A DNA stretch of 64,000 nt from Tunicatimonas pelagia. Its GTDB lineage: Bacteria > Bacteroidota > Bacteroidia > Cytophagales > Cyclobacteriaceae. A program made the translations under genes and the position numbers. Shown piece by piece: positions 1,483 to 23,407 of this stretch. Position 1 is the first letter of the stretch; the number at the start of each line of letters is the position of its first letter. Where the stretch lies: positions 1,922,001 to 1,986,000 of the forward strand of contig NZ_CP120683.1 in NCBI RefSeq assembly GCF_030506325.1, read 5' to 3'. The notes under the pieces are model-generated. The model was not told where the DNA came from and did no database searches. It was given only the letters and a program-made list of their open reading frames with translations.

Positions 1483-1493
1483 TCCTATTTTGT

Positions 1494-2651: not shown

Positions 2652-2659
2652 GAAAAAGT

Positions 2660-4474: not shown

Positions 4475-4994
4475 TACAGAATTCTGGTCTCCAGACCGTC
4501 TGTTCGGACTAGTGATTTCTAATGAACAGGTAGAGAGAATCATTGCAATAGCCAAAAGAGCCGGTAATTGTGAAACAGGCGGCGTACTCATTGGTTGCTA
4601 TACCGAAACTCTAGATTGTGCTTTACTTACTCAAGTTGTTGGGCCAACCCAAGATTCGACTGCTGGCAGAACTTGGTTTAGAAGAGGCATAAGGGGTTTA
4701 CAGCCCTTGATTGACTACTACTGGAAAAGCGAGCATAGTTACTACCTTGGCGAGTGGCATTTTCACCCGTTTGCTCCACCGACCCCTAGTTCTCAAGACC
4801 TTAGACAAATGAAAGATATTGCATGCTCACGCAGCTACAATTGTCCAGAACCTCTGCTATTGATTATAGGAGGTGATCCTGAAGCAGATTATATTATCAG
4901 AGCATTTGTATTTAAACAAAACGATGCTAAGCAACTGTGCTATCATAGTGAATTACATCAGATAATAGCAGGTGACAAAGCTACCCATTGTTGA
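4467..4994 (+). CDS. cap3: Cap3: JAMM/JAB isopeptidase of type II CBASS
   Basis: A 176-aa JAB/JAMM metalloprotease with a complete zinc site: E36 in the ETGGVLIG strand, then H98-x-H100, seven residues, S108, two residues and D111 (in GEWHFHPFAPPTPSSQD). In type II CBASS this enzyme removes CD-NTase from targets conjugated by Cap2. The ATG at 4467 overlaps the end of cap2 (stop 4472-4474); an in-frame GTG at 4461 would add only two residues. It closes the canonical four-gene CBASS set and is followed, after 18 nt, by the large STAND gene on the same strand. Confidence 0.9.
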   Translation: MNNTEFWSPDRLFGLVISNEQVERIIAIAKRAGNCETGGVLIGCYTETLDCALLTQVVGPTQDSTAGRTWFRRGIRGLQPLIDYYWKSEHSYYLGEWHFHPFAPPTPSSQDLRQMKDIACSRSYNCPEPLLLIIGGDPEADYIIRAFVFKQNDAKQLCYHSELHQIIAGDKATHC

Positions 4995-5012: not shown

Positions 5013-8000
5013 TTGAACATTACTCAACTAAATACCTATAATGCCTCACCCGAAGGAGCTTTTGAGGCTATATGTAACCAACTTTTTGAACGATGGATTC
5101 ATCGAGAGTACGGAGAACAAGTGGGCGTTTTTTCAGTAGTCAATGGAGCTGGTGGTGACGGTGGAGTGGAAGCATACGCCCGCCTTACGACTAATGACAT
5201 CATCGGCGTTCAGGCCAAATGGTTTCCTACAGCTATTCAAAGCAGCCAAATCAACCAGATACGAAAATCGATTCGTACTGCACGCTCGAACTATCCCAAT
5301 ATTAAGCGATATATCGTTTGTGTTCCGCGAAATTTTGCGTCTAAGAAAAAGACGAAGTCCGGTAAGGAGGCTCGGGACTATGAAGAAAAGCGAGTAACTG
5401 GCCTTATCAGTGAGTTTACCAATAGTAAAGAAGACTTTCTGGTTGAGTTTTGGAACGAGCACAGATTGTTGAGTGAGCTTCAAAGAGCGGAGAACGAAGG
5501 TATTCTAAAATTCTGGTTTGAGATGGAGGTACTTTCGTCAACGTTGTTTGAACAACGATTCGAGATCGCAAAGCACGGATGGCTAAGAGAGAAATATATC
5601 CCTAAGTTACATTGCGAAGGTCATATCCAAACGGTTGTGGGGGCATCCGTTAGACGTAGGTCGTATCTGTTACGAAAAGCGAATAATGTACGGCAATGCT
5701 GTGAAGACATTAATACTACAATCAAACTTATTGACCGCTATTGTGAAGCGCAGGATAATAGTACTCCGTTATTTGCAGATTTGATCCGAATTAAGGAAAA
5801 CTTACAAGATTTTTATAACATTCTCTCCTCATTATATCCTTCTATTAGTCAGCAGGGGTTCGTTAGGTGGCCGGAACCGCAAATTGAGGAGGTGGACATT
5901 TGGCCAACTAGATTGGCTTTGGGCGAAGTTCAACCAGCCCGAGCATTACAACGATTGCATGGTCGCCTAACGGTTCAGCTAGAGAGAATGCATCAGCTCC
6001 ATCTTAGTCAGCTTGTATCTCACTGTATTCACTTCAATACTCCTTACAACAGTGTCATCTGCGGAGATGCTGGTTCAGGGAAAACGCATGGACTAGCCAA
6101 AGCAGTAGAAAGCAGTATAGCTGCTGGGTATCCAGCGTTGATCATAGAGGCAAAAAATACACCCGCCGAAAGCTGGGCATCTATCATGCAAAGTGCCCTA
6201 GGTGGTTTTGCTAACTGGAGCGATAATGAGATATTTTCAGGACTCGAAGCCTCAGCCCATAGATGCGATGTAGGTATTGCAAGTGAAAATAAAAACATGG
6301 CCAAATCGAACGTCCTAATTTGTGTCGATGGATTAGACGAAGCTAAAGACAAAGCTGCATGGAGGGATCGCATCAACGAAACTAGAGCTTGGATTGACTA
6401 CTACCCTCGCCTCCGATTTATATTTTCAGTGCGATCTCATACTTTACACTTTACAGCACTGAAATCTATAGATAACGAGGCGGACAGCACAGTTAGAGTC
6501 GAGCATCTGCCAATGGAAGGTGATGTTCCGGTAAAAGATCTTGTTCCTAACTATTTTGAACACTACAGAATTACGTACTCATATGTACCTTGGATTGTCA
6601 ATGCTTTTGACAGCCCTCTAACGCTCCGACTATTCTGCGAAGAATATCAAAATCAGGAACTCACTAACGACAATCTCTCACCAATTATCGGTCTACGCTC
6701 CTTAATCAAAAGAAAGTTTAACCGCATCCAGAATGAATTTACTAACAGCCATAGACTCCCTCAAAGCAGTGCCAATCAAGTGTTTTCTAGAGTTATACAA
6801 TTAATAGTCAGCCTTTTTCATGAGGAACAAACCATAGAACACGACCGTCTTCGCTCCCAGATATTGGATGCAGCAAGCAATTCTATGGGTGCACCAACAG
6901 TAGACTGGCTTCTAGATAGCCTCACGGCTCATGGCATTCTTATCGCATCCGTTGACGAATCGCCGGATAGCTTTGATGAAACCGTCACCTACGCTATTAC
7001 CTATCAATCCTATATTGACTATTACATTGCTATTAAGCTAGTGAATGAAATAGTTGATTCCGGAAACAAGACTATGCCTGACCGACTAAAACAGCGAAAT
7101 GATTGGAATACAATGAGTTTGGTAGCTACAGGATTGCTATCTGATCATGGTATTCTAGTAGGTGAAAATGACTATTGGGTTCATGATAATTTGTATCCAG
7201 GCCATGTTGTTAAACTTCAATACGAAGCACTAAGCCATTGTTCAGGAGAAATAGTAAGAAAGTTCCTTCCTGAAATTAGACAAAAGATACTGGCATCTTA
7301 CCCAGCTAGTAACCAAGCGATAGAGTGGTTTTTAATACCTAACCTTTACCGAAAAGACTTATCACTCGGATTAACTTTTTTACACCCACTTTTGTCAAGA
7401 TTTCCCTCTGCATATGAGCGAGATCTGGTCTGGTCAGTAGATACGTATGAGTTTTCGCACGATAACACAATACCGAGCCTACTGGATGGTTATGAGCTAG
7501 ACGCTACGCAGACCTATGATCAGCTTCCCCTTTTGTTTGCTTGGAGTTTTACGTCGGTTGACAACGTAAATAGAGAGTATTGCCGAGAACAAATGCTGAA
7601 GTGGGCCTATCACCGTCCGGAAGAATTCATCAAGCTTCTAGACCTAATGTTTTTTTGTGGCGACCCTCAGGTACAAGAAGACTTCGCTTTGGTAATGTTC
7701 GGACTCGCTAGACTTTTTAACAAACCAAATCTAGGTATCGCACCGCTGACCGCCTGGGTGCTGGAAAATATTTTCGATACAGATAAAATAAAGGATATAG
7801 AAGATATCGTAGTAAGACACGGAGCGCGAGTAGTCGTTGAGCGGGCTAGCCTACTGGGCGAATGCGATTCAAAACACCTTACTTTAGCTCGTCCACCCTA
7901 TACGCACGATGACCGATGGTTAGATCTAGATTTTTCAGGTGAAGTTGGTGTTGACGGCGAAAGATATCCTCTTGTGATGGATTTAGCTTGGTATACGATT

Positions 8001-9272
8001 AAGAAAGCATATGATAAAGTATTAGATGATTCTGATCTCGCAGAGGACTTCCTACGAGAGTATGAGCAAAAGTACGGAAAGGAGCTAACTCCACATGAGT
8101 GGGCTATGTCAGCAGCTATTGCTTATATGAAGCAGTTAGGATGGCACCACATTGCGGGGCGCGGGCATGCTGCATATTCCGGTAGCCACGGTTCGCAAGC
8201 TGGCGTGTCTTCTATAGAGGAAAAGTATGCTTGGCTAGCTGTAAGGAAATTACAAGGCTTTCTGACAGACCGCTTGCCATATATGTTTGACGACAGAGTT
8301 CTGAGACAGATAGACGATTACAGTAGGCTTGCCAATATTGGCTTCCCAGAAATAGGTGACAGAAATTCTGTCAACCAGAATAGGTACGCAAATCCATTAC
8401 TAGAAAACAGTTCCTTTTACCCGGAAGACATAGCCAGTGAAATCGCTGTTTCTGAATCAGATGTACTAGCTAAGGTGGAGAACTGGGTGCGTACAGAAAA
8501 TACTCCTGACTTCGGTCGGTGGATAGAAACTGATTTTTCAGACATATTTACTGGAAATCCGCCGATTCAATGGACTAGCTTGTATCAAGATTCTCGTTTT
8601 ACCGAAGAAAACAATCTTAGCGAAACGCATCTAACATTTGTAGCATTGACAATCCAGCAAAGCCGCTGGGACGATCTGCTCAAAGCGTTTGATGGAGACG
8701 ATCTTCAACACAACAAAAGTATGCTTGATAGCTCTCGCTCTCTGCTATCTTCACCAGACACTCACACGTATGCATCTGTCAAAGATTGGGTATGGATGCA
8801 CTGGATTAAAGATACTTACTCGGAAATTGAAATTTTTGGTGGCTTTGAAAGGCTTACACTGCATAAAACGGTATGCGAAGTTGTAGAAAACTCTCAAAAC
8901 CTCGGTGAGCAGTACTTCTATGTTCCCTCCAGAGCGTTACTTAGCGGTCTCAACGTTTCAGAAACCGACTACGTAAACTTCTGCACTAAAAATGGAGATA
9001 AAATAGGTCTCGCTCATAGCGTTAAAAGTGGCAATCCAGATGGCGAGCAAAATTTGCTATTCGTAAAGAGTGACGCTCTTCAGCATTACGTTGAGAGCGT
9101 AGACCGAAGAATGTTGTGGTTATGCTTCGAGTCAAGGGGTACTACTGCGTATTTCAGAGAAAATATAAGTAAAGATCGTTGGCCAAGCCGCTGCCGAATA
9201 TGGCTGGTATGGAAGCAGGATAACGAATTTAAAAGTATCCAGTATCATGAAGGTAGGTTTTTCAATGACTAG
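5013..9272 (+). CDS. Large nuclease-STAND NTPase (Avs-like antiviral protein candidate)
   Basis: A 1419-aa soluble protein. Residues 1-160 look like a PD-(D/E)xK nuclease of the Mrr/Cap4 type: D49 and E53 in GAGGDGGVEAY, then Q67-A-K69 in IIGVQAKWF. A P-loop NTPase follows: Walker A G351-DAGSGK-T358 and Walker B ICVDGLDE (D439-E443), with the LDE ending typical of NACHT/STAND ATPases. The remaining ~900 residues have no motif I recognise; in Avs proteins this part senses a phage protein. The start is a TTG: an in-frame TAG at 5004-5006 blocks any upstream start, and no ATG or GTG follows before the nuclease motif. It lies 18 nt after cap3, so co-transcription with CBASS is likely. The nuclease-STAND architecture is visible; the Avs identity is inference. 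Confidence 0.75.
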   Translation: MNITQLNTYNASPEGAFEAICNQLFERWIHREYGEQVGVFSVVNGAGGDGGVEAYARLTTNDIIGVQAKWFPTAIQSSQINQIRKSIRTARSNYPNIKRYIVCVPRNFASKKKTKSGKEARDYEEKRVTGLISEFTNSKEDFLVEFWNEHRLLSELQRAENEGILKFWFEMEVLSSTLFEQRFEIAKHGWLREKYIPKLHCEGHIQTVVGASVRRRSYLLRKANNVRQCCEDINTTIKLIDRYCEAQDNSTPLFADLIRIKENLQDFYNILSSLYPSISQQGFVRWPEPQIEEVDIWPTRLALGEVQPARALQRLHGRLTVQLERMHQLHLSQLVSHCIHFNTPYNSVICGDAGSGKTHGLAKAVESSIAAGYPALIIEAKNTPAESWASIMQSALGGFANWSDNEIFSGLEASAHRCDVGIASENKNMAKSNVLICVDGLDEAKDKAAWRDRINETRAWIDYYPRLRFIFSVRSHTLHFTALKSIDNEADSTVRVEHLPMEGDVPVKDLVPNYFEHYRITYSYVPWIVNAFDSPLTLRLFCEEYQNQELTNDNLSPIIGLRSLIKRKFNRIQNEFTNSHRLPQSSANQVFSRVIQLIVSLFHEEQTIEHDRLRSQILDAASNSMGAPTVDWLLDSLTAHGILIASVDESPDSFDETVTYAITYQSYIDYYIAIKLVNEIVDSGNKTMPDRLKQRNDWNTMSLVATGLLSDHGILVGENDYWVHDNLYPGHVVKLQYEALSHCSGEIVRKFLPEIRQKILASYPASNQAIEWFLIPNLYRKDLSLGLTFLHPLLSRFPSAYERDLVWSVDTYEFSHDNTIPSLLDGYELDATQTYDQLPLLFAWSFTSVDNVNREYCREQMLKWAYHRPEEFIKLLDLMFFCGDPQVQEDFALVMFGLARLFNKPNLGIAPLTAWVLENIFDTDKIKDIEDIVVRHGARVVVERASLLGECDSKHLTLARPPYTHDDRWLDLDFSGEVGVDGERYPLVMDLAWYTIKKAYDKVLDDSDLAEDFLREYEQKYGKELTPHEWAMSAAIAYMKQLGWHHIAGRGHAAYSGSHGSQAGVSSIEEKYAWLAVRKLQGFLTDRLPYMFDDRVLRQIDDYSRLANIGFPEIGDRNSVNQNRYANPLLENSSFYPEDIASEIAVSESDVLAKVENWVRTENTPDFGRWIETDFSDIFTGNPPIQWTSLYQDSRFTEENNLSETHLTFVALTIQQSRWDDLLKAFDGDDLQHNKSMLDSSRSLLSSPDTHTYASVKDWVWMHWIKDTYSEIEIFGGFERLTLHKTVCEVVENSQNLGEQYFYVPSRALLSGLNVSETDYVNFCTKNGDKIGLAHSVKSGNPDGEQNLLFVKSDALQHYVESVDRRMLWLCFESRGTTAYFRENISKDRWPSRCRIWLVWKQDNEFKSIQYHEGRFFND

Positions 9273-10135
9273 GCTGACGTAAAAATCTTTTTTATAAGTG
9301 CTGCCAATTCTGTTCTCACTCGACTATACTCCGGCAATTTATCGCCCGGAATCTGATGTGATAGGCTATTCTTCCAAGCGGCTTGTAAACGCTTATCGTT
9401 TTCGTCATTGATCATTTGCAATAAGCCGGTAAATATCAGTCCTTTGAACTTCACCTTTTGGTGAAACGCTGTGGTGATAGCGGGCCAATCCAGGTCAGGT
9501 ACACGATGAGCCAAATACCAAATGTCGTAAAAATCGCGCGGAGCGGTGTAGGAGCGTTGGATCAGGGCGCGTAGCTTCTCAGCTAACACTTCCGATAGCG
9601 AGTAGCAAGGCACTCGCTCGGCCGCCGGTGATAACGCATCGGAATAAGCATGATGCACCGGACGCTCTTCGATAGGAAACACCATCGTTTCGTACGAGAT
9701 GGTCTCTATCTTGATACTGGTTCGCCAGCGATGCGGCGGTGGAGGCGGCTGATTACGCGGATGGTCCGCGCCCCAAAACTTAACCGTAGCGGCAAAACCG
9801 GTCGGGCGTTCCTGGTGCCGAAGTACTTTAAGCTGCTGTAGATGAAGCGACATCGCGGTGCGTTCGGTCACTCGGCGCATAATCTCAGTCAGCAGCTTTT
9901 CGTCCAGTCGGAAGTCAGCATTGACTGCCGTGAAGTCCAGATCTTCCGAGAAACGGTAGTTTGGAAAGTAGCACTTCTTCAGACAGGTGCCGCCTTTGAA
10001 CACCAGTTGCTCCCGACAGACAGGAATAGAAAAAATAGCATCCACGAAGTGACCTAACGCCCAGTCTTTGTCTATGGTCGTTTTAGCTACCCCTTGCTGT
10101 TCAGCCACTGTCGCAACTTCTTTCTGCCGAATCAT
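9269..10135 (-). CDS. abiEii: AbiEii-type nucleotidyltransferase toxin
   Basis: A 288-aa protein of the AbiEii/AbiGii toxin family, the toxin of type IV toxin-antitoxin systems. The signature is VFKGGTCLKKCYFPNYRFSE, directly followed by DLDF, which is the nucleotidyltransferase GG-T/S...DxD core; the C-terminal RDFYDIWYLA motif is also family-typical. Such toxins act by transferring nucleotides to cellular RNA and cause abortive infection or growth arrest. Its ATG directly abuts the antitoxin stop (TAAATG, 10133-10138), so the two are translationally coupled. Its stop lies inside the last codon of the convergent STAND gene: both use the palindrome CTAG at 9269-9272. Confidence 0.88.
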   Translation of the reverse strand: MIRQKEVATVAEQQGVAKTTIDKDWALGHFVDAIFSIPVCREQLVFKGGTCLKKCYFPNYRFSEDLDFTAVNADFRLDEKLLTEIMRRVTERTAMSLHLQQLKVLRHQERPTGFAATVKFWGADHPRNQPPPPPHRWRTSIKIETISYETMVFPIEERPVHHAYSDALSPAAERVPCYSLSEVLAEKLRALIQRSYTAPRDFYDIWYLAHRVPDLDWPAITTAFHQKVKFKGLIFTGLLQMINDENDKRLQAAWKNSLSHQIPGDKLPEYSRVRTELAALIKKIFTSA

Positions 10136-10927
10136 TTAATACACTTTATCACAGATAGACAAGATGGCTTCCTCACTCAGGTTCATCCGTAGCCTCCAGT
10201 CGGCTACAAAGGCTCCTTCCTCCGTCCCCTGAGGGTCGAAAAGATTGTATTTCAGATTCACCTGCTGTTTAGCGTACCGAATAAACTTCTTCATCCCTTT
10301 CTTCTCTAACAACTCCGCCAAATAACCCATCCGTTTGGTAACAGCAATATTCTGCACGGATTGGCAGTACGTAATCATCTTTTCAGCGTCGACTTCTGCT
10401 TCGGCAAAGGCCCGCAGCAGTTCGGCGTATCCCCCGGAGTACTGCGGCAAATCAAAACAGTCGACCAGCGTCTTTTCTACATCCGTTATTGAGTAACTCG
10501 CACTACCGTACCCCTGAGATTCATATCCTAGTATCTTCCGGGGGTTCACCTTCACAAACTTATAGTCTACCCCGAAGATACGTTTGGCTTTTTTTTCCTG
10601 GGAAGTCTGCACGAAGACGGTATTGGCAAATTGTTCGGTGAGTCCGTGTTGATTGAGGGCCGACCAGTAAGCAATACCACCGTCTTTTACAATAAAGCTT
10701 CCGATGACCAGTTCATCCCGGAAATTATGGCGGCAGTACTTGCCCCGCTCAATGCGAGAAAGTAAGCCCTTCTGCACTAAATTCTCGACCGTTTCATTGA
10801 GTCGATCTACCGGCCCTACGATCTCTTCAATCGTGTCCAACGCAAAGAGTAAGACCTCGTAATCGTCCAGTAGCTTAAGAAATTCCACCTGGTTTTTCGC
10901 CAAGTGAGTAGATTGATAGGTTCCCAT
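10136..10927 (-). CDS. abiEi: AbiEi-type antitoxin / transcriptional repressor
   Basis: A 263-aa protein upstream of the AbiEii toxin in the same operon. It begins with an apparent winged helix-turn-helix (residues ~10-70, ending in GLLSRIERGKYCRHNF) followed by the AbiEi_4-like body with IAYWSALNQHGLTEQ and SITDVEKTLVDCFD motifs. In known AbiE systems this protein both counters the toxin and represses its own promoter by binding inverted repeats. An imperfect palindrome lies 25-43 bp upstream of the start. The protein is longer than minimal antitoxins but normal for AbiEi proteins with a C-terminal antitoxin domain. Confidence 0.85.
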   Translation of the reverse strand: MGTYQSTHLAKNQVEFLKLLDDYEVLLFALDTIEEIVGPVDRLNETVENLVQKGLLSRIERGKYCRHNFRDELVIGSFIVKDGGIAYWSALNQHGLTEQFANTVFVQTSQEKKAKRIFGVDYKFVKVNPRKILGYESQGYGSASYSITDVEKTLVDCFDLPQYSGGYAELLRAFAEAEVDAEKMITYCQSVQNIAVTKRMGYLAELLEKKGMKKFIRYAKQQVNLKYNLFDPQGTEEGAFVADWRLRMNLSEEAILSICDKVY

Positions 10928-12016: not shown

Positions 12017-12095
12017 TACACGCACTTCTTCATTTTTTTACATCTAACCCCTTATTTCCATGAAACCCTTTTTCTGTTTATGCACCACATCTCCG

Positions 12096-12437
12096 ATGAA
12101 AACTGCTCTGGTTACCACAGCCAACCGGCGCTGCTATCGCTCTTTGGCTTTGCTGGTCGGGATGCTGCTACTGGTCACCCCTTCCTTTGGGCAAGCATTA
12201 GTAGAAAATGCTATGGCTAGTATCCGCACCTGGATTATTGTCATCCTGAACGTGGCCTTTTTAATTGGTATTGCTATCGGCATTTTTAAAGCGGCGATGA
12301 AATTCTTTACCGGAGCTCCCGACAAGATTGAGTTTATGATCGGGATGGTAATTGCCATTGCCCTGTTCGGTGGCTTTCAATTTATCGTTGATGACCTGGC
12401 TACGTTCTTAGGCGGAGACATTGTTCTGGATCCTTGA
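12096..12437 (+). CDS. traE: TraE-like (DUF4134) VirB2-type pilin-like conjugation protein
   Basis: A 113-aa protein with a cleavable-looking signal segment ending in SFGQA and two further hydrophobic helices (WIIVILNVAFLIGIAIGIF and MIGMVIAIALFGGFQF), the layout of VirB2-like DUF4134/TraE proteins of Bacteroidetes conjugative transposons. The ATG at 12096 gives a normal signal peptide; the longer version from 12060 adds 12 residues and is less likely. traF follows after 3 nt. Role from the family: inner-membrane pilin or channel component. Confidence 0.8.
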   Translation: MKTALVTTANRRCYRSLALLVGMLLLVTPSFGQALVENAMASIRTWIIVILNVAFLIGIAIGIFKAAMKFFTGAPDKIEFMIGMVIAIALFGGFQFIVDDLATFLGGDIVLDP

Positions 12438-12440
12438 TGC

Positions 12441-12761
12441 ATGAAAACTTTTAAGACGATTGAAAAAAAAGCCCAACTGCTGGGATTGCCTATGCAGGAT
12501 CTGTTTGCCTTGCTCTTTGGTCTTTCGCTGGCCATGGTGGCAGGCATCATCCTGAACTTTTTCATCGCCGTCTCCAAGTACTACTTTTTAGCGGTGTTGG
12601 TCTCGGTGGTTGGTGCTTTCTTTCTGTTGAAGCGCATCAACCGGCAAAAGCATCCGAGCTTTTTGTTCTCGTACCTTTCCTACCGCCTGTGGCAAGTCCG
12701 TAGGCTAGAAGTCTGGGAAAGTCCGCGCATTCGCCGAAAACCTAAGCGTCGTCCATCCTAA
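12441..12761 (+). CDS. traF: TraF-like (DUF4133) VirB3-type membrane protein
   Basis: A 106-aa protein with two adjacent membrane helices (residues ~20-42 and ~46-63) and a basic C-terminus, matching the short VirB3-like TraF/DUF4133 family that always precedes TraG in Bacteroidetes conjugation operons. It starts 3 nt after traE and ends 29 nt before traG. It should work with the TraG ATPase at the inner membrane. Confidence 0.8.
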   Translation: MKTFKTIEKKAQLLGLPMQDLFALLFGLSLAMVAGIILNFFIAVSKYYFLAVLVSVVGAFFLLKRINRQKHPSFLFSYLSYRLWQVRRLEVWESPRIRRKPKRRPS

Positions 12762-12790: not shown

Positions 12791-15448
12791 ATGTTACTTA
12801 CGAAAACAGTAAAAAAGTCTCGCAAATCAGCGTACCTACGCCAAAAACTGCCCGTATTCACCCTGGAAGAAAACAAGGTGGTCTTCCGCGACGGACGGGT
12901 CGCGGTGGGTTTTCGGGTGTACGGGGCTCCCCTGGAATCCTGGACCGAAAGCGACTATGAGCAGGCCAACGAACTGCTGACCCAGCAGTTGAAGATGCTG
13001 CCGGTCGGTACCGTTTTGCAAAAAACGGACATCTACTACGATCATGAGTGGGGCGCCACCCGGTGGTCTCACGATAAGTATCGCCCGGATAATGCCCCTT
13101 CAGGCTATTACGAAGGTAAGCTCTACGAACACTTCTTCGCTCGTTTAGCGCTGCTGCACGAAGGCTATTTATTTCTGTCGTTTCCCTCTAAGTCACGGCA
13201 CCGTTTGAAGCGCACGAATCCGATTACCAGTCTCTTTGCCCAGGAGGCGATAATTAAGAATCCGTTTGAACGGGTGGACGAACTGCTGCAGGAAGCCGAG
13301 GCGACCGCCACCGAATTCGTCAGTGGTCTGTACGGATTAAAGCACGTAGCTTTTCAACGCCTGGAAGAGGAAGCATTAAACACCTTATTCGTTCGATACA
13401 TCAACCTGTCATTTAGCGAAGGGGGCGAGCGGCTGAACCGGGTCGTCTATAACGATCAATCAGCCTTGGTCGTGGGTGAAAAGAAAGCCAATATCATCAC
13501 GATGACCGGGCAGGGCAGTGAAGTATTTGCCAGTGTCAAAAACCACTATCGGGTGACCAGCCCCTTTAGCTATCCGCTCGCCCAGTATATGCAGTTTCCC
13601 CACGTGGTCACCCAGTGTATGCTGGTGGAAGATACCGAACGAGAACTGAAAGCCCTGGACTTTGAGCGCAAACTCAACGATTCGATGGAGTGGCTCACCA
13701 CCCAGGACCATGAGCTAAAGGCTGAAGAACTGGACGAGTTCACCGCCTACGTTCGTTCGGGCAGCGCCGGGCTGGTGAGCCTGCATCTTTCGGTACTGGT
13801 ATTTGAAAGTGACGAGCGACTCCGGAAGTCCTACGCCGAACGGAGCGTCGCGGCCCTACGCCAGATGTACGGGGCAGAGACCCTGATTGAGTCCTACGAC
13901 ACGGCCAATATGTTCTTTGCCTCACTACCCGGAAACGGTTTCCAGCACTACCGTTGGCTGACGACTTCTTCCGAAATAGCTTCGTGCTACCTGCACTTTG
14001 TGACTTCGTTCACCGGAGACAAACGGGGCGACTATCTCTGTGATCGCTTTCGCAATCTGCTACGGGTCAACCTGTTCAATACGGACCTAGCTAACCAGAA
14101 CTGCGTGGTGATTGGCCCCTCGGGTTCCGGTAAGTCCTACACAATGGGGAATTTCATTGCCCAGCGATTGGAACGGGGAGCCCGGCAGATCATCATCGAT
14201 AAGGGTGGCACCTACCGCAATGTGATGTACGCGCTGACGGGTCAAAACTTTACCCAGACCTACTTTGAGTACAGTAGCGAAAAGCCGCTGGCCTTTAATC
14301 CGTTTCTGCTAGACAAAGACGAGCAGGGCCACTATCAGCTCACCTCAGCCAAGTCCAACTTTTTGATTGCAGTACTCAGCACTATCTGGAAAGGGGGGCA
14401 GGGTGACGATGCGGTCGGCCAAGACTTAACTCCCGCCGAACGAGCGATCTTTAAGCTTATCCTACCTCGTTACTACCAGTATCTAGAGGAAGGTAAAGAC
14501 ACAGTTTTTCCTGGCATACACTCGTTTTATCATTTTCTTCGTCGGTACCAGTCCGAGCATAGCAGTGAAGCTGACTACCAGCAGGAAATCAGGTACTTTA
14601 ATGTGGAGCAGTTTCTCATTGTGCTCAAACCCTTCGTATCAGGCGAGTACAAGGAAGTGCTCAATGCCGCCTACGAATTAGACATCAGTGAACAACCGCT
14701 AGTCTGCTTTGATCTGGATAAAATCAACAGCGATCCGGTGCTGTACCCGGTCGTAACCCTATTGATTACCGAACTGGCCCTGGATCAGATCCGTAAGTTC
14801 CCAGATCAAATCAAGTACCTGTACTTAGACGAAGCCTGGGCGATGCTGTCGGGTAAACTCAAGGAGTTCATCGAAGACTTATTTAGAACAATCCGTAAGA
14901 ATAACGGCTCGGTGAATATTATCACCCAGGGACTGGCGGAGATCAAAAAGTCTAGTGTAGGCGAAGCGGTGCTGGTCAACGCTGATACCAAGATTACTCT
15001 CAAGCATCAGGATAAAAGATTGATCCAGGAACTTGCCGCGCACTTAGGTTTCACCGAGCACGAAGTAGATTTGATTCAATCCATGCGGGTAGAACAAGAC
15101 TATCGGGAGCTGTTCATCAAGCAAAGCGAAGAAGCTCGGGTGTACGTACTGGAAACCTCGCCCCACCTGGATGCAGTCCTTTCATCTAAGCCTGCCGAAC
15201 GAAATTACTTACGCAAGCTGGTTGAACGCTACCAGGGTAACTTGCCCTACGCGGTGAATCAGTTTGTCGAGAGCAAAGCGCGAGGGGCTGGGGGCGGGGC
15301 GCTGGGCGGCACTCCGCAAGGGGTAGCTAGGGATGAGGTAGGAACAGATAGCACTACTGACCAAGCTCACCGAAGGGAAAACGGTAAACAACCCCAAGCT
15401 ACGCACCCCCAGCACCAACCACCAAGCCCCCCACCCGCTCATGAATAA
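12791..15448 (+). CDS. traG: TraG: VirB4-type conjugation ATPase
   Basis: An 885-aa VirB4/TraG ATPase that powers assembly and substrate transfer of the type IV secretion system. Walker A is G442-PSGSGK-S449 and Walker B is YLYLDEAWAML (D680-E681); an RNNGSVNIITQGL-type switch segment follows. Length and order match TraG of Bacteroidetes conjugative transposons. The final ~60 residues (after FVESKARG) are a low-complexity Gly/Pro/Gln/His tail encoded by a GC-rich stretch with partial inverted-repeat character, so it may be an acquired extension. It overlaps traJ by 8 nt, indicating coupled translation. Confidence 0.92.
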   Translation: MLLTKTVKKSRKSAYLRQKLPVFTLEENKVVFRDGRVAVGFRVYGAPLESWTESDYEQANELLTQQLKMLPVGTVLQKTDIYYDHEWGATRWSHDKYRPDNAPSGYYEGKLYEHFFARLALLHEGYLFLSFPSKSRHRLKRTNPITSLFAQEAIIKNPFERVDELLQEAEATATEFVSGLYGLKHVAFQRLEEEALNTLFVRYINLSFSEGGERLNRVVYNDQSALVVGEKKANIITMTGQGSEVFASVKNHYRVTSPFSYPLAQYMQFPHVVTQCMLVEDTERELKALDFERKLNDSMEWLTTQDHELKAEELDEFTAYVRSGSAGLVSLHLSVLVFESDERLRKSYAERSVAALRQMYGAETLIESYDTANMFFASLPGNGFQHYRWLTTSSEIASCYLHFVTSFTGDKRGDYLCDRFRNLLRVNLFNTDLANQNCVVIGPSGSGKSYTMGNFIAQRLERGARQIIIDKGGTYRNVMYALTGQNFTQTYFEYSSEKPLAFNPFLLDKDEQGHYQLTSAKSNFLIAVLSTIWKGGQGDDAVGQDLTPAERAIFKLILPRYYQYLEEGKDTVFPGIHSFYHFLRRYQSEHSSEADYQQEIRYFNVEQFLIVLKPFVSGEYKEVLNAAYELDISEQPLVCFDLDKINSDPVLYPVVTLLITELALDQIRKFPDQIKYLYLDEAWAMLSGKLKEFIEDLFRTIRKNNGSVNIITQGLAEIKKSSVGEAVLVNADTKITLKHQDKRLIQELAAHLGFTEHEVDLIQSMRVEQDYRELFIKQSEEARVYVLETSPHLDAVLSSKPAERNYLRKLVERYQGNLPYAVNQFVESKARGAGGGALGGTPQGVARDEVGTDSTTDQAHRRENGKQPQATHPQHQPPSPPPAHE

Positions 15449-16433
15449 CGTCGCAGTTACCCCGGAGTTTCTGGCGGCGGTCAACGCGCTGTCGGATAAG
15501 ACGCACGCTATTGGTCTGGCTATGGTGCCAATATTTTTGATGATCGTGCTTTTCAACCAAGTGTTTGCGGCCTTGGTGTTCAGTGCTCGCTTTCGACTGG
15601 ATGTGCAACCACTTGTACGCGGACTGGTCATCATCATTGCCCTTACCTTTTACGCCGATTTCTTAGGGGTGATTAGTGGTACGATCAAGGCGTTGTCGGA
15701 CTTCATTGGTCCTGATAAAACCTTTATGCAAAAATTAGCCGACATGTGGAATTTACTACTGCCCGGAACGCAGGACGGCGGACTGCCCAGCAACATGGAA
15801 GAACTCTATCAATCATTTACCCGCCTGATGCAGTTTGATATCGTCAACTGGCTACTGGCCCTGCTAGAGGGTTCGTTCGTGCATATTGTCCGCAAGGGTA
15901 TTGAGATCATTCGCCTGGTACTACTCGCCTTCCTCTACATCGTCGGCCCCCTGGCGATTGGGCTTTCGGTGATACCGAGTTTTAATAGTTTAGCGATGAA
16001 GTGGCTCCAAAGTTACCTGACGGTACAGTTTTGGAGTGTCACGCTCATTATTCTGGATACCTTAGTTAGCCAGTTCAACAGCCTGTACTTTAACGGACTA
16101 CTCTTTACCAACGAGCTGGGAGCCGCCAACTTTGTGCTGGTGAGTCTGGTGATTGTGATTCTTTACTTTTTGGTACCACACTTAACGAGCTACTATTTGG
16201 GCCACTCCCACGCGGCCATCTTTCAGAGCCGGGTGTTCAGTACCGCCTTGCTGGGAACCGGTATGGCCTATCAGGGCGGACGCGCAGTCATGATGGGGGG
16301 CAGGGCTGCCCTGGGAGCTGGAGGTGCCGCCTTAGGCCGGGGGCAACAAGCCGTGCGCTATGCCTACCGGCGCTATCGCTACCAGCGGCAATTTAGCGGA
16401 GGTGTGCAACCAGGGAGAACCTACGATTTATAA
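15441..16433 (+). CDS. traJ: TraJ: VirB6-type polytopic conjugation protein
   Basis: A 330-aa inner-membrane protein with about six to seven hydrophobic helices (for example AIGLAMVPIFLMIVLFNQVF, VLLAFLYIVGPLAIGLSVIP, NFVLVSLVIVILYFLVPHL) and a Gly/Arg-rich basic C-terminal tail. This is the expected layout of TraJ in Bacteroidetes conjugative elements, the VirB6-like part of the inner-membrane channel. The start overlaps the traG stop (ATGAATAA). Confidence 0.85.
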   Translation: MNNVAVTPEFLAAVNALSDKTHAIGLAMVPIFLMIVLFNQVFAALVFSARFRLDVQPLVRGLVIIIALTFYADFLGVISGTIKALSDFIGPDKTFMQKLADMWNLLLPGTQDGGLPSNMEELYQSFTRLMQFDIVNWLLALLEGSFVHIVRKGIEIIRLVLLAFLYIVGPLAIGLSVIPSFNSLAMKWLQSYLTVQFWSVTLIILDTLVSQFNSLYFNGLLFTNELGAANFVLVSLVIVILYFLVPHLTSYYLGHSHAAIFQSRVFSTALLGTGMAYQGGRAVMMGGRAALGAGGAALGRGQQAVRYAYRRYRYQRQFSGGVQPGRTYDL

Positions 16434-16476: not shown

Positions 16477-17085
16477 ATGTCTAAGGTACGAGACTTTAAT
16501 AAAACCTTTAAAACCATGCGTCTGCTAGCGGTAATCTGCCTGCTCGGCTTTATGGCAGCTACCGTAGCGTTTGCTTTTCTTTACCAGCGGGTGCAGGAGT
16601 ACTACCAACACCGGACCTACGTCATTACCAGTTGGGGCACCTTTCCGGCCAGTTACTACGACGGCCGTAAGGTATCGCGTATTGAAGTGCAAAACCATAT
16701 TGAAACCTTCGTCAAAAATATGTTCGCCCACTCGGCCGAGACCTACTACGAGCATATCAATTTTGCGCTGAACCTCATTGACGAGGAATCCGGTAAACGG
16801 ATTTATCATGACTTCGAAGAAGGCGATGTGCATAAAAACTACGTTCGCTACGGCTCGCATACCGAGATCAAACTGGATTCGGTGGTCATTGATATGAGGC
16901 AGCTACCCATTGCCGCTAAGTTCTACGCCTTGCAGGAAGTACACATTGGCGAAAACGTGCGTACCCTGCCCATTGCCGCCAGCTTTCAGGTGCTCCAAGA
17001 CTACCGGCACGACAAGAACCCTTATGGCTTGCTGCTTACCAACTTTGATTTTATTGCTTACCCAAGAAAGTCGGAAGAACCATGA
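16477..17085 (+). CDS. traK: TraK: VirB8-type conjugation protein
   Basis: A 202-aa protein starting at the ATG 16477, 43 nt after traJ; the frame is open upstream, but the residues there are encoded by traJ DNA in another frame. One membrane helix at residues ~15-37 (RLLAVICLLGFMAATVAFAF) is followed by a periplasmic domain with HIETFVKNMFAH and YEHINFALNLID segments typical of TraK. VirB8-like proteins bridge the inner membrane complex and the core channel. Its TGA overlaps the ATG of traN by 4 nt. Confidence 0.85.
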   Translation: MSKVRDFNKTFKTMRLLAVICLLGFMAATVAFAFLYQRVQEYYQHRTYVITSWGTFPASYYDGRKVSRIEVQNHIETFVKNMFAHSAETYYEHINFALNLIDEESGKRIYHDFEEGDVHKNYVRYGSHTEIKLDSVVIDMRQLPIAAKFYALQEVHIGENVRTLPIAASFQVLQDYRHDKNPYGLLLTNFDFIAYPRKSEEP

Positions 17086-17876
17086 AACATCTCGTCATAA
17101 GTAGCGTGCTTAGCCTTACTCTTTTTCACCTGGGACAAGCCCAGCGAGCCGTATCCCAGGATACCGTCTATGTATCCGATCAAGCAAAATCGTATCTGCT
17201 GTTTGACCATCCGGTGAGTTTGGTAGATGTAGGCAACCCTGCTTGGTACGAAGCCCAGATTGAAGGAAATGCCGTACTAGTCGTAGCCCGAGCGGACAGC
17301 GTTCCGGCGACTCCGATCTACGCGGTCGTCAATAACGAACCCTTTACGGGTGTGCTGTCCTTTCAGCCACAGCCAAATTCCTTCTACGATTTCCGAGAGG
17401 TAAAGACTCCAGCCAGCCAAGCGATAACGGGCGTTAATCCCAGGGTGCTACAAGAACGCCTACGCTCAATGCAAACCCACCTTGATCTACGCTACGGTCA
17501 GCAGCAGGAAGGGGGCATTACGTTTCGACTGGTCGGTGTCATGCACGATCTATCGGCGACCTACCTAAAATTCAAAGTAGAAAATCAATCGTCGGTGGTA
17601 TACCGAACCGATTTTATCGGCTTTCAGCGGCGGCAACGCTACCGGAAAGGTTTCTTCGCCAAAGAAAAGGAGGTCACGTTTCCGATTGAGCCACTGGTCG
17701 CCCAAAATATTCATCCGGTGTTGCCCTACTCGGAAGGCTACTATTACTACGCCTTACCACTCTGGGCCTACGGTGCCAAAGAATCCTTGCTCGCCACACT
17801 GCGGGAAGAAAGCGGCAGCCGTACATTAACCCTAAAGATTTCGCCCCGCTTAATCCGACGGGCCGACCTTTTCTAA
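17082..17876 (+). CDS. traN: TraN-like (DUF4138) VirB9-type conjugation protein
   Basis: A 264-aa periplasmic protein with a signal peptide (cleavage probably after HLGQA) and the beta-strand pattern of TraN/DUF4138 (YLLFDHPVSLVDVGNPAW, then AVVNNEPFTGVLSF). It is the VirB9-like component of the outer-membrane core complex. In CTnDOT-type elements traN follows traM; here it comes before traM. Translation is coupled to traK through ATGA. Confidence 0.82.
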   Translation: MKHLVISSVLSLTLFHLGQAQRAVSQDTVYVSDQAKSYLLFDHPVSLVDVGNPAWYEAQIEGNAVLVVARADSVPATPIYAVVNNEPFTGVLSFQPQPNSFYDFREVKTPASQAITGVNPRVLQERLRSMQTHLDLRYGQQQEGGITFRLVGVMHDLSATYLKFKVENQSSVVYRTDFIGFQRRQRYRKGFFAKEKEVTFPIEPLVAQNIHPVLPYSEGYYYYALPLWAYGAKESLLATLREESGSRTLTLKISPRLIRRADLF

Positions 17877-17935: not shown

Positions 17936-17958
17936 ACCCCGCCCCAAACCTCAAACAC

Positions 17959-18963
17959 ATGAAAGACTTTAATGAGAATGTCGATGACGAAAGTATTGAG
18001 CGAACCGGGCAAGGGTCTGACCGTTTTGATGAGCCAGAGCCGCCCCGGTCATTTACCCAGAAATTGGGGAAAGGACTCGCCCGCTACAGCTTGCTCATTA
18101 TTGTGGGCAGCGCGGCGGTATCCATCACCTTTTTACATTTTAAAGGGCGCAGCCTGTGGGAATCATTATCCGGGACCCCGCTTCCTTCCTTCTGGCTGGA
18201 GGAAGAAGTGGTTGAAAAGGACGTACCGGACAAGACGCAGGTCTACGATGAAACGCTCTCCCAAGAAAAAGAAGCACAGAAAAAAAGGCAGGCACGACCG
18301 GAAAAAATCACCAAGCCCTACTGGGAAGGATACGCTACGTCCGATACCGCTACTATCGATGTAGCTGCTCAGCAAAAGGACACTGTTCCAGTAAACCCTC
18401 ATCCTCCGAAACGAAGAAGAAGGTTACTCCCGGTAAAGACACCGCCTGCCGTTTCTAGTGTTCCGGATACCGTTTCGGTAGCACCGCTCAGCTTGTTTCA
18501 GGTAGTACGTGCAGACCGTGCTTCGCCCGGAACCTTTGTCCGTTGTGTGGTGCACGGCGATCAGGAAATCCGTAGCAACGATCGGATTCGCTTGCGCCTG
18601 GAAGAGCCGATTACGCTTAATGGCCAAATTATCCCGGTGAATACTATCGTTTACGGCGACGTGCGCCTTTCGCAGAACCGTCTGCAAATTAGTGTGCAGC
18701 GGATTGGCCCTCAGCTTGCTTCGCTATCGGTCCATGACCATACCTATCACGCAGGGATTATGCTGGACGAACGAAACAACGTGGTACAGGAAGCGACTCA
18801 GACCACTGCTTTCCGGCAGGGAAATCAATCCGCTAATCGGCTTCCGACTCAGGTCGCTTCTGAGCTAGGCCGCAACCTGTTGCAGCAAAGCCGCCGTCGA
18901 CAGCAAACCGTATTTCTACCCGATGGCTTTCCGCTCTTTATTCACCACCAAAACCTGCAATAA
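17959..18963 (+). CDS. traM: TraM: VirB10-type conjugation protein
   Basis: A 334-aa protein starting at the ATG 17959; an in-frame GTG at 17881 would translate the hairpin and is unlikely. It has a charged cytoplasmic N-terminus, one membrane helix (~residues 42-60, YSLLIIVGSAAVSITFLHF), a long hydrophilic Lys/Glu/Pro linker and a C-terminal DUF3714 domain (IRLRLEEPITLNGQIIPVNT, VYGDVRLSQNRLQI). This is the VirB10-like energy-transducing component spanning both membranes. The downstream gene starts 3 nt after its stop. Confidence 0.85.
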   Translation: MKDFNENVDDESIERTGQGSDRFDEPEPPRSFTQKLGKGLARYSLLIIVGSAAVSITFLHFKGRSLWESLSGTPLPSFWLEEEVVEKDVPDKTQVYDETLSQEKEAQKKRQARPEKITKPYWEGYATSDTATIDVAAQQKDTVPVNPHPPKRRRRLLPVKTPPAVSSVPDTVSVAPLSLFQVVRADRASPGTFVRCVVHGDQEIRSNDRIRLRLEEPITLNGQIIPVNTIVYGDVRLSQNRLQISVQRIGPQLASLSVHDHTYHAGIMLDERNNVVQEATQTTAFRQGNQSANRLPTQVASELGRNLLQQSRRRQQTVFLPDGFPLFIHHQNLQ

Positions 18964-18966
18964 ACC

Positions 18967-19791
18967 ATGAAAAACGCTATTTTATTTGTATCTTTCCTAC
19001 TGCTAAGTAGTCCTGTAGCACTTATCGCTCAAGGAGTTCCGGTCATGGATATTGCCCATATTGCGATGACGGTCGCCAATGGGCAAACGCTAAACGACCA
19101 ACTGGATAAGTTGGAAGAGCAAGTCGGTATTTCGTATTTGATTGAACGTAAGGTCTCCGATATCTATGACTTGCAGAAAGACTATCAAGAATTTTTAAAA
19201 CAGGCGGAAACGACAAGAGAGTTGCGCTGGGCGGATTTGGTTTCCAGTCAAGCCCACGCGCTCTCGCTGGAAACGCACATGGATGCCTACGTTCCCGCCT
19301 ACGAGAACGTCGGTACGCTAATGCAAGCCTACGCCACGCTGGAAGGGATTAACGGAGCACTGGCCTTGTACCAAGAACTGGATGGCTTTGGAGCGGATAC
19401 CCCGCTGCCACCCAGTTATGCTGCTTTGCAAGTGATGCTCTCGGATTTGTCGGTCAACCGGGGAGCCTTTGACGAGATGGCCTATAAAAAGAAGTTACAG
19501 GTAGCGCTCTCGTACAACGAGGTGGCGGAAGACTTGCTGGAAAAAGCGCAGGAGTTAGGTCAGGCATTGCTGGTAAATGAACGCTTTTCGATGACCGAAG
19601 GCGAACGACTGGCGAGTATCAAGCAGGCGCACGATTATATTCTGCAAAGCATGGATTTGAAGCTGCAATCCGATCAGTTGGTGCTGGATGTGATGAGCGA
19701 AGCCGAGCAAGGTCAGGCCGGGCTACTGAAGCAGTATGAGCAGCAGTTAGAACGGGAAGTGGTAGCGATCACTCCTTTGTATCAGTATTGA
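18967..19791 (+). CDS. Secreted coiled-coil protein, paralog 1 of 3
   Basis: A 274-aa protein with a signal peptide (cleavage after ALIAQ) and a mostly helical, Gln/Glu/Leu-rich body. The C-terminal third carries the motif ERFSMTEGERLASIKQ and ends TPLYQY, both shared with the next two genes. I do not recognise a named family. By position after traM and by being exported and helical, it could be a VirB5-like pilus-associated protein or the equivalent of the secreted TraI of other Bacteroidetes elements; this is inference. Confidence 0.7.
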   Translation: MKNAILFVSFLLLSSPVALIAQGVPVMDIAHIAMTVANGQTLNDQLDKLEEQVGISYLIERKVSDIYDLQKDYQEFLKQAETTRELRWADLVSSQAHALSLETHMDAYVPAYENVGTLMQAYATLEGINGALALYQELDGFGADTPLPPSYAALQVMLSDLSVNRGAFDEMAYKKKLQVALSYNEVAEDLLEKAQELGQALLVNERFSMTEGERLASIKQAHDYILQSMDLKLQSDQLVLDVMSEAEQGQAGLLKQYEQQLEREVVAITPLYQY

Positions 19792-19800
19792 TAAACGCTA

Positions 19801-20622
19801 ATGACGATGAAAACGCTTTTAGTTATACTTGGCTTGATAATTAGCACGGCCAACCTTCACGCCCAAAAGGTGATTCCGGTCGTGGACTTAATGCTGAAGG
19901 ATAGCATCGGTGAAAATGCTACACGCAACGGCAAACAATTTGGGTTACTGGAACTCATCCGAAGACAGACGAAGAACACCCGTGATGAAGTAGCCGACAC
20001 CCGAACGCTTCAGTACGACTACCAAGCCTTTCTGCGACAAACGACCAGCACGGCTTCGCTGGCGATCTCGGACGCTACCACCGAGCAGGAAGCGACGGGA
20101 GAGGTGCTGGGTACGGCGCAGCATCTGGGAGATTATTCCTTTGCCGCGGACCTCTATGCGGTGTATCAGGCAGCGGTAGAACCCATGGATAAAAGTGAGG
20201 CCCTGTACGAAATCTTAATTCCTTACGATGAAACGATGGTATTTGGTGCGCTATCCTCGTTGGAAGCCTACCAGAAAGCCCGGCAACAAAACGTGATGGC
20301 GCTGGAAGAAATGAATAGGCGGCGTAAGTTACAACAAGCTAAAGCCTATCAGCAACGAGCCCAGAGAAAAATAGAAAAAGCAGCGGAGCTGCGCGCACGA
20401 CTGACCACAGACCAACGCTTTTCGATGACCGAAAGCGAGCGGTTAGAAACGCTTTCTCAGATGCAAAAGACACTGCAAGAAAGTCAGCATCTGAAAGTGA
20501 AGGTGGATCAACTGATGCAACAGGTCACCCAGCCTTCGCTTGCTAAAACCCGGGTGCTACACGCCTACGAAAAACAACAAGAGCGATATGCCATAGGGAC
20601 AACCCTACTGTATCAGGACTAA
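19801..20622 (+). CDS. Secreted coiled-coil protein, paralog 2 of 3
   Basis: A 273-aa protein paralogous to both neighbours, with a signal peptide ending LHAQ, a helical body and the conserved QRFSMTESERLETLSQ motif before a TTLLYQD end. An alternative ATG two codons in (19807) is possible. Its middle is richer in Arg/Lys/Gln than paralog 1 (EEMNRRRKLQQAKAYQQRAQ). It starts 9 nt after paralog 1. Function unknown; see paralog 1 for the contextual guess. Confidence 0.7.
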   Translation: MTMKTLLVILGLIISTANLHAQKVIPVVDLMLKDSIGENATRNGKQFGLLELIRRQTKNTRDEVADTRTLQYDYQAFLRQTTSTASLAISDATTEQEATGEVLGTAQHLGDYSFAADLYAVYQAAVEPMDKSEALYEILIPYDETMVFGALSSLEAYQKARQQNVMALEEMNRRRKLQQAKAYQQRAQRKIEKAAELRARLTTDQRFSMTESERLETLSQMQKTLQESQHLKVKVDQLMQQVTQPSLAKTRVLHAYEKQQERYAIGTTLLYQD

Positions 20623-20638
20623 ATCAATCTCAGTCACG

Positions 20639-21433
20639 ATGAAACTTATCACCTATTTTTTCTTTCTGGGGATACTTCCCACAGTAGTGCAAGCACAGGG
20701 GGCTTTGGTCATCGACAAAAAAGCGATTGCCAAAAGCGGCGAGAATGTCGCGATAAACTTGGCGAAAGGACAGCAGTACAAGAAAATCCGAGACTTCACG
20801 GAAGACATTCACATGCATTACTTCGCGATAGAAGCCTTGCAACAGCAGGTGCTGAACGACTGGAAACAAGCCGAATCCGTTCGGGATTTACACTGGGCTG
20901 ATTTATCTCGCTCATTATACCTGGCTACTGAATTGGTGAAGGGGCCCATACAACCCGGATTGGAAGTGGATTTTGTTATTGAGCATCCACTGTTTCAGCG
21001 TAGTCCGGATGATATCTATCGCGATTTGTTTATGGCGGGCTCTGTCGATGCACTACCGGCGGACTTGACTTCTTTTCAGCAGGCACGGCAAACCGCCCGG
21101 TCGCTCACTGGGAGCTTTCACCAACTTGCGGCCGAGCGGAAAGCCTACGGGGCAGTCGCGTTTCAGTATTTGGCCGAAGACCTGATGATGAAAGCCACCG
21201 AAATGAATGAGGTACTCAAGCAGCCCGAACGCTTCGCGATGACTGAAGTCGAACGTATTCGCTTGCAATCCTTTTCGGAAGAATATCTGCAACTGGCGGG
21301 TGAGTTACTGGAACGTTCTGATCAACTCCTGCTGGATGTCGCCTACGTCCAACCACTGCGAAAGCAAGCAGACCAAACTCACCACCGCCTGGAACGAGCA
21401 GCCGTTGCTACGACTCCTTTGTTCAACTATTAA
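20639..21433 (+). CDS. Secreted coiled-coil protein, paralog 3 of 3
   Basis: A 264-aa protein, the most divergent of the three tandem copies. It has a signal peptide (cleavage after VVQAQ), the segment SVRDLHWADLSRS that mirrors TRELRWADLVSS of paralog 1, the motif ERFAMTEVERIRLQSF and the end TTPLFNY. It starts 16 nt after paralog 2. Conservation of the same three landmarks in all copies suggests they assemble together or on the same partner. Confidence 0.7.
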   Translation: MKLITYFFFLGILPTVVQAQGALVIDKKAIAKSGENVAINLAKGQQYKKIRDFTEDIHMHYFAIEALQQQVLNDWKQAESVRDLHWADLSRSLYLATELVKGPIQPGLEVDFVIEHPLFQRSPDDIYRDLFMAGSVDALPADLTSFQQARQTARSLTGSFHQLAAERKAYGAVAFQYLAEDLMMKATEMNEVLKQPERFAMTEVERIRLQSFSEEYLQLAGELLERSDQLLLDVAYVQPLRKQADQTHHRLERAAVATTPLFNY

Positions 21434-21978: not shown

Positions 21979-22389
21979 ATGAGCACGATGGCAACAACGA
22001 TCCTTTGGCAAGCGCGTCCCTCACCGCTTCAGTACCTGCCACTCTATGTATCTTGTATACTACTACTACCGTTCCCTTGGGCACTGTGGCGGTACCTACA
22101 AACCCAAACCACCCGTTACACCCTGACCGAAGAACGGTTGATCGTGACTAGTGGCATATTTCATCAGCAGCAGGAAGAGCTAGAGTTATACCGGGTGAAG
22201 GATTATTCAGTCTCTGCTCCCTTGCTTTTTCGCTGGCTAGGCTTGGCGAATGTCCATTTGCTCACGTCGGACCATACGCATCCTGAGTTAGTACTTAACG
22301 GCATTCGGGAGGCCGACCGGGTGAAGGAGCTGATCCGCACCCAAGTAGAAACACTACGAACCCAAAAGGGAGTAAGGGAAATTGATTAA
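21979..22389 (+). CDS. PH-domain (bPH2/YdbS-like) membrane protein
   Basis: A 136-aa protein beginning 1 nt after the lipoprotein stop. It has one hydrophobic segment (~19-37, LPLYVSCILLLPFPWALW) followed by a bacterial PH fold: TTRYTLTEERLIVTSGIFHQ, then LELYRVKDYSV and the W(L)GLANVHLLTSDHTHPEL segment that is diagnostic for DUF304/bPH2 proteins. An alternative start is the ATG at 21988. Its role within a conjugation operon is unknown. Confidence 0.75.
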   Translation: MSTMATTILWQARPSPLQYLPLYVSCILLLPFPWALWRYLQTQTTRYTLTEERLIVTSGIFHQQQEELELYRVKDYSVSAPLLFRWLGLANVHLLTSDHTHPELVLNGIREADRVKELIRTQVETLRTQKGVREID

Positions 22390-22423: not shown

Positions 22424-23407
22424 ATGGAGCAAGAAAGAAATAAGGACGCAACTTCTCAGCAGGAATTGCAAGCAGTAGGCAAACAAGCGGCCGATGCCCT
22501 GCGGGGTTACGGTTATCCGGATATGGCTCAGGAGTATGAGCGAGCGTTGCACCGCTCGGCGTTGTATCCCAAAGATACGCTGGCGCATAGTCGCATGGCC
22601 AATGTCGCCCTCAAAGAACTTAATACCCTTTCGGAAGAGCGACAGGGGCGACATCTGGCCCTGAACCGAAACATTGAGGTTCAAGAGAAATTAGAAAACA
22701 CGCTGTGGAAAATCCAGCAGAAAGATCAGAGCTATCCTATGCCTACGCTATCGCATCAGGGTAAGGAATACCTAAAAGAAAACAGTCAACCCCTGGTCAA
22801 TGCTGCTTACGAGGTAGACCGCTACTTGCGGGACAAGCGGATACACAGTCAGCCAGAGGCAAAAATGACTTCGCTGGAACGACGGCTGAGTGAGGGCATA
22901 GATAAGCATCAGCAGCATCCTTCTACCACCTCGATGACCGAGTTGGAAAAGAACACCCGAACGGGGCTGAGCGAGATGAAGGTGGACTTTCAGCAAACCA
23001 AAGAAGCCTTCCGCCAGGAAAACGAACGCTACATTGCCGAGCGAGATTATCTCTCCGAAGCAGGAAAGAAAACCATTCGGCGGGAAGCCGACCAAGGTAT
23101 CTTTATGATGCCTAACCAGCAGCGGGGCCATACCGTAATGGATACCATTGGCCGAGTGGATGAACAGCTTAATCAGTTTAGTCAGGCAAAAAAGCAAGCC
23201 ATAAAAATGGATCAACCTGAGCGTAGCAATTCTATGGCCCGTCCACCAAATCACGAGACTTTGCTACCGGAGCCTGCGCTTGATACTACTGATCGATCCA
23301 TCCGAAATTCGCATCCTCATTTATCCTCCGAGCAGACAGAAAGGTATCAAGCCCTTCAGGGTAGCCATATACTAAAACCGGGGAAGGATAATGAAATTGA
23401 GATGTAA
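22424..23407 (+). CDS. Hydrophilic, mostly helical protein at the end of the Tra operon
   Basis: A 327-aa protein without signal peptide or membrane helix, rich in Gln, Glu, Arg and Lys and probably coiled-coil. It ends with RYQALQGSHILKPGKDNEIE. No family recognised. It is the last gene of the same-strand block, 34 nt after the PH-domain gene. Large soluble hydrophilic proteins in such positions are sometimes accessory DNA-processing or mobilisation factors, but no relaxase motif (HUH or tyrosine pattern) was seen. Confidence 0.6.
   Translation: MEQERNKDATSQQELQAVGKQAADALRGYGYPDMAQEYERALHRSALYPKDTLAHSRMANVALKELNTLSEERQGRHLALNRNIEVQEKLENTLWKIQQKDQSYPMPTLSHQGKEYLKENSQPLVNAAYEVDRYLRDKRIHSQPEAKMTSLERRLSEGIDKHQQHPSTTSMTELEKNTRTGLSEMKVDFQQTKEAFRQENERYIAERDYLSEAGKKTIRREADQGIFMMPNQQRGHTVMDTIGRVDEQLNQFSQAKKQAIKMDQPERSNSMARPPNHETLLPEPALDTTDRSIRNSHPHLSSEQTERYQALQGSHILKPGKDNEIEM

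Follow-up and report, generated by a model that had tools for sequence, protein, structure and literature searches.

A tandem trio of TraI/VirB5-like paralogues most likely stands in for TraI in a Tunicatimonas pelagia conjugation operon

Three paralogous genes downstream of traM

We analysed a 64,000-nucleotide stretch of the Tunicatimonas pelagia genome (contig NZ_CP120683.1, positions 1,922,001 to 1,986,000), hereafter referred to as the window. It contains a tra operon in which three similar ORFs, T1, T2 and T3, follow the gene encoding TraM. The operon and the genes downstream of it comprise:

12060..12437, + strand: TraE-like small membrane protein (position and iterative profile; no Pfam match)
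12441..12761, + strand: TraF-like protein (position and iterative profile; no Pfam match)
12791..15448, + strand: TraG ATPase, VirB4-type (TIGR03783, E 4.3e-71)
15441..16433, + strand: TraJ, VirB6-like (TIGR03782, E 1.9e-7); overlaps the end of TraG
16480..17085, + strand: TraK (TIGR03781, E 2.9e-17)
17082..17876, + strand: TraN, DUF4138 (TIGR03780, E 3e-9); before TraM
17956..18963, + strand: TraM (PF12508, E 1.5e-24; TIGR03779, E 2.1e-14)
18967..19791, + strand: T1, TraI/VirB5-like paralogue 1, ORF of 274 aa; most conserved of the trio
19801..20622, + strand: T2, paralogue 2, ORF of 273 aa; fastest evolving
20639..21433, + strand: T3, paralogue 3, ORF of 264 aa
21444..21977, + strand: lipoprotein-like gene after the trio (no family match; relatives in loci L011 and L050)
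21979..22389, + strand: bacterial PH-domain membrane protein (PF03703, E 5.9e-15); downstream of the trio in most related loci
22424..23407, + strand: coiled-coil protein belonging to this cluster (relatives in L009, L011, L047 and L049)

The four genes from traM to T3 are all on the + strand and are separated by 3 (traM-T1), 9 (T1-T2) and 16 bases (T2-T3), so they can be read as one transcription unit. An earlier note on this DNA had described three tandem paralogous, secreted coiled-coil genes after traM, each with a signal peptide, and this description holds: the ORFs are in place, the upstream gene is TraM by its match to PF12508, and a Sec-type signal sequence with AQ at its end, as expected of VirB5/TrbJ proteins, can be read directly in every copy, export itself being predicted. 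When T1 was queried against the six-frame translation of the whole genome, T2 and T3 were retrieved with E-values of 6.5e-21 and 1.5e-17. These values show that the paralogy of the three is real and far beyond chance, at a pairwise identity of 29–35% within the window and 26–35% among paralogues across loci. The motif RF[SA]MTExER[LI] near the C-terminus (RFSMTEGERL in T1, RFSMTESERL in T2 and RFAMTEVERI in T3) and the aromatic C-terminal tails (LYQY, LYQD and LFNY, respectively) are also as first described, with the refinement that the MTxxER part is kept throughout the family, single-copy relatives included, while the aromatic ends occur only in the closest branch.

Compared with the gene order of CTnDOT, the window has TraN ahead of TraM, a reversal, and TraG runs directly into TraJ with the place of TraI vacant; the usual TraI slot is empty because TraJ overlaps the end of TraG. 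The 7.3-Mb genome contains three intact tra loci, namely the window, L009 (C1:1.145 Mb) and L010 on the 97.7-kb contig C2, and the trio follows TraM in each of them. A search of genome contigs with the pair of T1 sequences returned two loci only, both already found by the genome search. A further locus in this genome, L011, is a remnant with a broken T3.

Relationship to the TraI and VirB5/TrbJ families

None of the three window proteins had a match over the cut-off in Pfam, NCBIfam or PHROGs, and the Pfam scan returned no match of T1, T2 or T3 to DUF4141 (PF13605), the family of CTnDOT-type TraI. Higher scores were found among their relatives. The first copy of the plasmid-type trio is the best DUF4141 match in the whole genome, scoring 27.7 bits in hmmscan (cut-off 30) and 30.4 bits together with its neighbours in the genome scan. 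A single-copy relative, L051, scored 24.8 bits (E 1.4e-5), below the cut-off, and the scanned TraI-slot proteins of L056, L057 and L061 exceeded it. For PF07996 (VirB5/TrbJ), the two best matches in the genome were T1 genes (E-values of 0.002 and 0.009, the next being 0.84); the cut-off of 24.7 bits was not reached, with 21.2 bits for the best T1 (L066, E 4e-4) and 14.3 bits for the window T1.

Searching the phylum with the family alignment gave, outside the order, mostly N-terminal matches with E-values of 1e-3 to 1e-6 that included the signal peptide. Several of the retrieved proteins were single proteins located in the TraG-TraJ slot, and profiles of the trio and of the TraI-slot proteins matched each other. 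To check that the signal peptide did not produce these matches, we built a trio profile from mature sequences and searched the 1,202 ORFs of all loci with it. The 13 top-ranked non-members were all TraI-slot proteins. Profile-profile comparison of the mature sequences (hhalign) gave 58–65%, while reversed and unrelated decoys did not exceed 5%. These scores are moderate, fall further when T1, T2 or T3 is taken singly, and derive from alignments that cover the N-terminus or the MTxxER hairpin. By profile ranking and hhalign, the similarity to TraI thus extends beyond the signal peptide. A PDB profile match of the trio to a solved VirB5 (TrwJ, 7o3v, E 5e-5) was lost once signal peptides were removed, and we rejected it as strong evidence; the other PDB profile matches were coiled-coil or repeat proteins.

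The resemblance to TraI is also visible in the features of the proteins. Both TraI and the trio are secreted helical proteins of the same tra operon family that share an N-terminal xVVxDP-type start and the MT[ED]xER motif near the C-terminus. In our class-wide sample, however, TraI is about 210 aa long and present in one copy between TraG and TraJ, whereas the trio proteins are 264–274 aa long with a larger middle part and form three copies after TraM. As to VirB5/TrbJ/TrwJ, T1 and its orthologues weakly match the N-terminal half of PF07996, the proteins are predicted to be all-helical, and VirB4- and VirB6-like partners are encoded alongside. Structure prediction added little: AlphaFold2 models built from nine sequences only were all-helical and of low confidence (pLDDT of 56 and 52), with a long helix, small helices and then two to three long helices. 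Fold searches with these models found generic helical bundles and, among VirB5 proteins, only a poor match to CagL. The family placement rests on sequence and context rather than structure.

Genomic context separates the two arrangements cleanly. In all 20 distinct loci with a trio-type copy after TraM, the TraG-TraJ slot was empty, and in all 23 loci lacking such a copy, that slot held at least one ORF; in 17 of these loci the profile recognised it as TraI-like. No locus thus combined trio-type genes with an occupied TraI slot; the loci were chosen by TraM or profile matches and represent a sample rather than a census. In the window, the operon has no TraI-type genes other than the trio, which is located after TraM instead of between TraG and TraJ. 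The trio most likely stands in for TraI, moved from its usual place in the operon. It had been thought to lie outside the standard CTnDOT-type tra set, but it replaces a standard component of that set. We suggest that T1, T2 and T3 are most likely divergent, relocated and distant members of the TraI (DUF4141)/VirB5-TrbJ family, the putative pilus-tip subunit of type IV secretion systems. The pilus-tip role proposed earlier gains support from this distant homology and from the empty TraI slot. Our literature search found no paper treating DUF4141 as VirB5, an absence that proves little.

Age, constraint and possible roles of the three copies

Maximum-likelihood phylogeny resolved each of T1, T2 and T3 as a single clade (supports of 100/99, 100/100 and 100/99), with sequences from four or five loci in three species of the genus. 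The complete trio, in unchanged order, is present at all six of the genus's intact tra loci (the window, L009, L010, L047, L048 and L049), of both chromosomal and plasmid type. With one very long sequence left out, plasmid-type copies paired with the chromosomal ones by position (T2 with P2, 73/80; T3 with P3, 90/94), and the T and P copies as a whole formed one group (86/97). These three support values lie below the usual threshold of certainty. Because the three clades are separate and all six loci keep three copies in order, the trio is, by this phylogeny, an old and jointly inherited set. The copies are ancient in the tree, which rules out recent local duplication, and gene conversion among the copies of one locus is ruled out as well, since in the tree each copy joins those in the same position at other loci.

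Outside the genus, the nearest relative (L051) and other Cytophagales loci (L012-L018) have one copy after TraM, and L020-L025 have two, arising from a separate duplication (99/95). These relatives share with the trio the family, the position after TraM, the TraN-TraM order and the empty TraG-TraJ slot. They differ in having one copy, or two of which the first contains an insert of about 110 aa. This insert is rich in glycine and hydrophobic residues and lies just before the MTTGERI motif. Loci L032-L035, from three families, contain three TraI copies within the standard TraG-TraJ slot, and their first, second and third members form separate clades (100/99, 100/98 and 98/92), which identifies them in the tree as a second, independent ancient triplet. 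The ordinary state is represented by the class-wide single-copy loci L054-L057, L061 and L062. Judging from the two-copy loci and the separate triplet, the TraI-type component has been multiplied several times and then kept. The family thus has multiple copies in parts of the order rather than being a strictly single-copy Tra family, a possibility the earlier note had raised. Contrary to what that note suggested, tandem TraI-like copies are likewise not specific to this branch, having arisen independently in other Cytophagales systems, and the trio is older and more widespread than was assumed.

We determined how the copies differ in constraint by comparing L009 with L066. As dS was near saturation, dN/dS is not a test of selection here; dN was 0.07 for T1, 0.33 for T2 and 0.18 for T3, compared to 0.03–0.06 for TraJ, TraK and TraG and 0.10–0.16 for TraM and TraN. 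T1 is about as conserved as the core Tra proteins, most strongly at residues 160–240, the hairpin around MTEGER (87–98% identity), while T2 changes about five times faster. The three copies thus appear to be under clearly different constraint, as divided roles would predict.

Two known systems are relevant for interpreting this pattern. VirB5 of R388 sits as a pentamer on a VirB6 stalk, and the proposal is that the growing pilus carries it outward at its tip (PMC9259494; reviewed in PMC12857230). R388 VirB5 is the product of one gene and forms a homopentamer, whereas the trio consists of three diverged genes that fall short of the PF07996 cut-off. In Bartonella, tandem duplications of trwJ are documented, and TrwJ1 and TrwJ2 are surface-exposed and host-binding (PMC3406051). 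The Bartonella Trw system resembles the trio in the tandem duplication of a VirB5 component, but trwJ is duplicated along with trwI and trwH and serves red-cell adhesion, whereas the trio is fixed at three without its neighbours and belongs to a conjugative element.

Considering the paralogy, the distant homology to TraI, the complementary placement and the ancient joint triplication, we regard it as probable that the trio represents subfunctionalised TraI/VirB5-TrbJ paralogues that assemble on TraJ into a mixed pilus tip or stalk. T1, T2 and T3 would be exported by Sec and would come together on the VirB6-like TraJ, with T1 as the conserved core and the fastest-changing T2 as the outermost or partner-facing subunit. 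Divided roles are suggested by the strong differences in constraint among the copies. The main rival is that each copy forms a homo-oligomeric tip of its own, the three serving as alternative adhesins that differ in recipient specificity; such a scheme has been proposed for the Bartonella trwJ copies. The surface-exposed TrwJ1 and TrwJ2 provide a precedent, and the fast evolution of T2 would fit. However, an interchangeable pool would be expected to vary in number, while none of the six intact loci of the genus has lost a copy or changed the order, and T1 is constrained like a core Tra protein. We consider this rival unlikely, as the invariable retention of all three favours their joint use.

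An assignment of the tip to T1 alone, with T2 and T3 having a different periplasmic function, for example as chaperone or assembly scaffold or in entry/surface exclusion, would explain why T1 matches VirB5/TrbJ best and is the most constrained, and why T2 and T3 have diverged so far from T1. Since T2 and T3 retain the signal sequence and the MTExER motif, and T3 also the predicted helical layout, this seems improbable to us. The lack of any match over a curated cut-off and the uninformative fold searches might even suggest that the trio has no relationship to TraI/VirB5 and consists of secreted coiled-coil proteins that are encoded in the operon by coincidence and resemble that family only through low-complexity helices. 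Considering that the profile specifically ranked TraI-slot proteins at the top, that the two slots are mutually exclusive and that decoys scored near zero, we regard such a chance resemblance as highly improbable.

More generally, Bacteroidota conjugation might use hetero-oligomeric tips of two or three obligate, ancient VirB5-type paralogues, evolved independently several times and unlike the homopentamer of R388, a generalisation that we propose tentatively. Recipient recognition and pilus start are poorly known for the Bacteroidota-specific conjugation apparatus, and our results place a likely tip component in it, one that has repeatedly been moved and multiplied. Loci with one, two and three copies form a natural series for addressing whether tips are homo- or hetero-oligomeric and which copy sets recipient specificity.

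The elements carrying the trio

Every tra locus of this genome has a corresponding DUF5712 gene with a coupling protein gene after it. For the window, the pair lies on C1, about 20 kb before the window begins; for L009, it lies about 30 kb away from the tra genes, where a tyrosine integrase gene is also found; and for L010, it is on C2 itself. Since every tra locus has such a pair, the loci probably represent conjugative elements, two of them chromosomal and one on a plasmid-like contig. The DUF5712 gene always lies just before that of the coupling protein (L067:9775-10770, L070:5779-6774 and L071:12144-13403). Because of this position, and because a PF03432 relaxase search of the genome found none over the cut-off, the DUF5712 protein is a candidate relaxase of these elements.

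Two remnants (L011:7000-9600 and L050:9509-11900) lack a tra operon but contain T2/T3-type genes alongside genes for lipoprotein, PH-domain or coiled-coil proteins, and are likely decayed elements. The plasmid-type copies have their own peculiarities. Copy 2 (L010:12558-13805 and L048:9903-11291) has an acidic N-terminal extension of about 150–190 residues that is absent from the chromosomal type. In copy 3 (L010:13726-14622 and L048:11269-12096), a conserved cysteine immediately follows the hydrophobic leader, and the protein is possibly a lipoprotein.

Upstream of the tra genes in the window, on the same presumed conjugative element, is a complete-looking type II CBASS set (25-4994) consisting of genes for a SAVED-type endonuclease effector, a cyclase, an E1-E2 protein and a JAB protein. 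It is followed by a gene for a 1,419-aa Avs2-like defence protein (5013-9272, E 1e-75) and, adjoining it on the opposite strand, by an AbiEii/AbiEi pair (9269-10927; the region as a whole spans 5013-10927). The element thus appears to carry a defence island, and such elements would also carry defence genes between cells.
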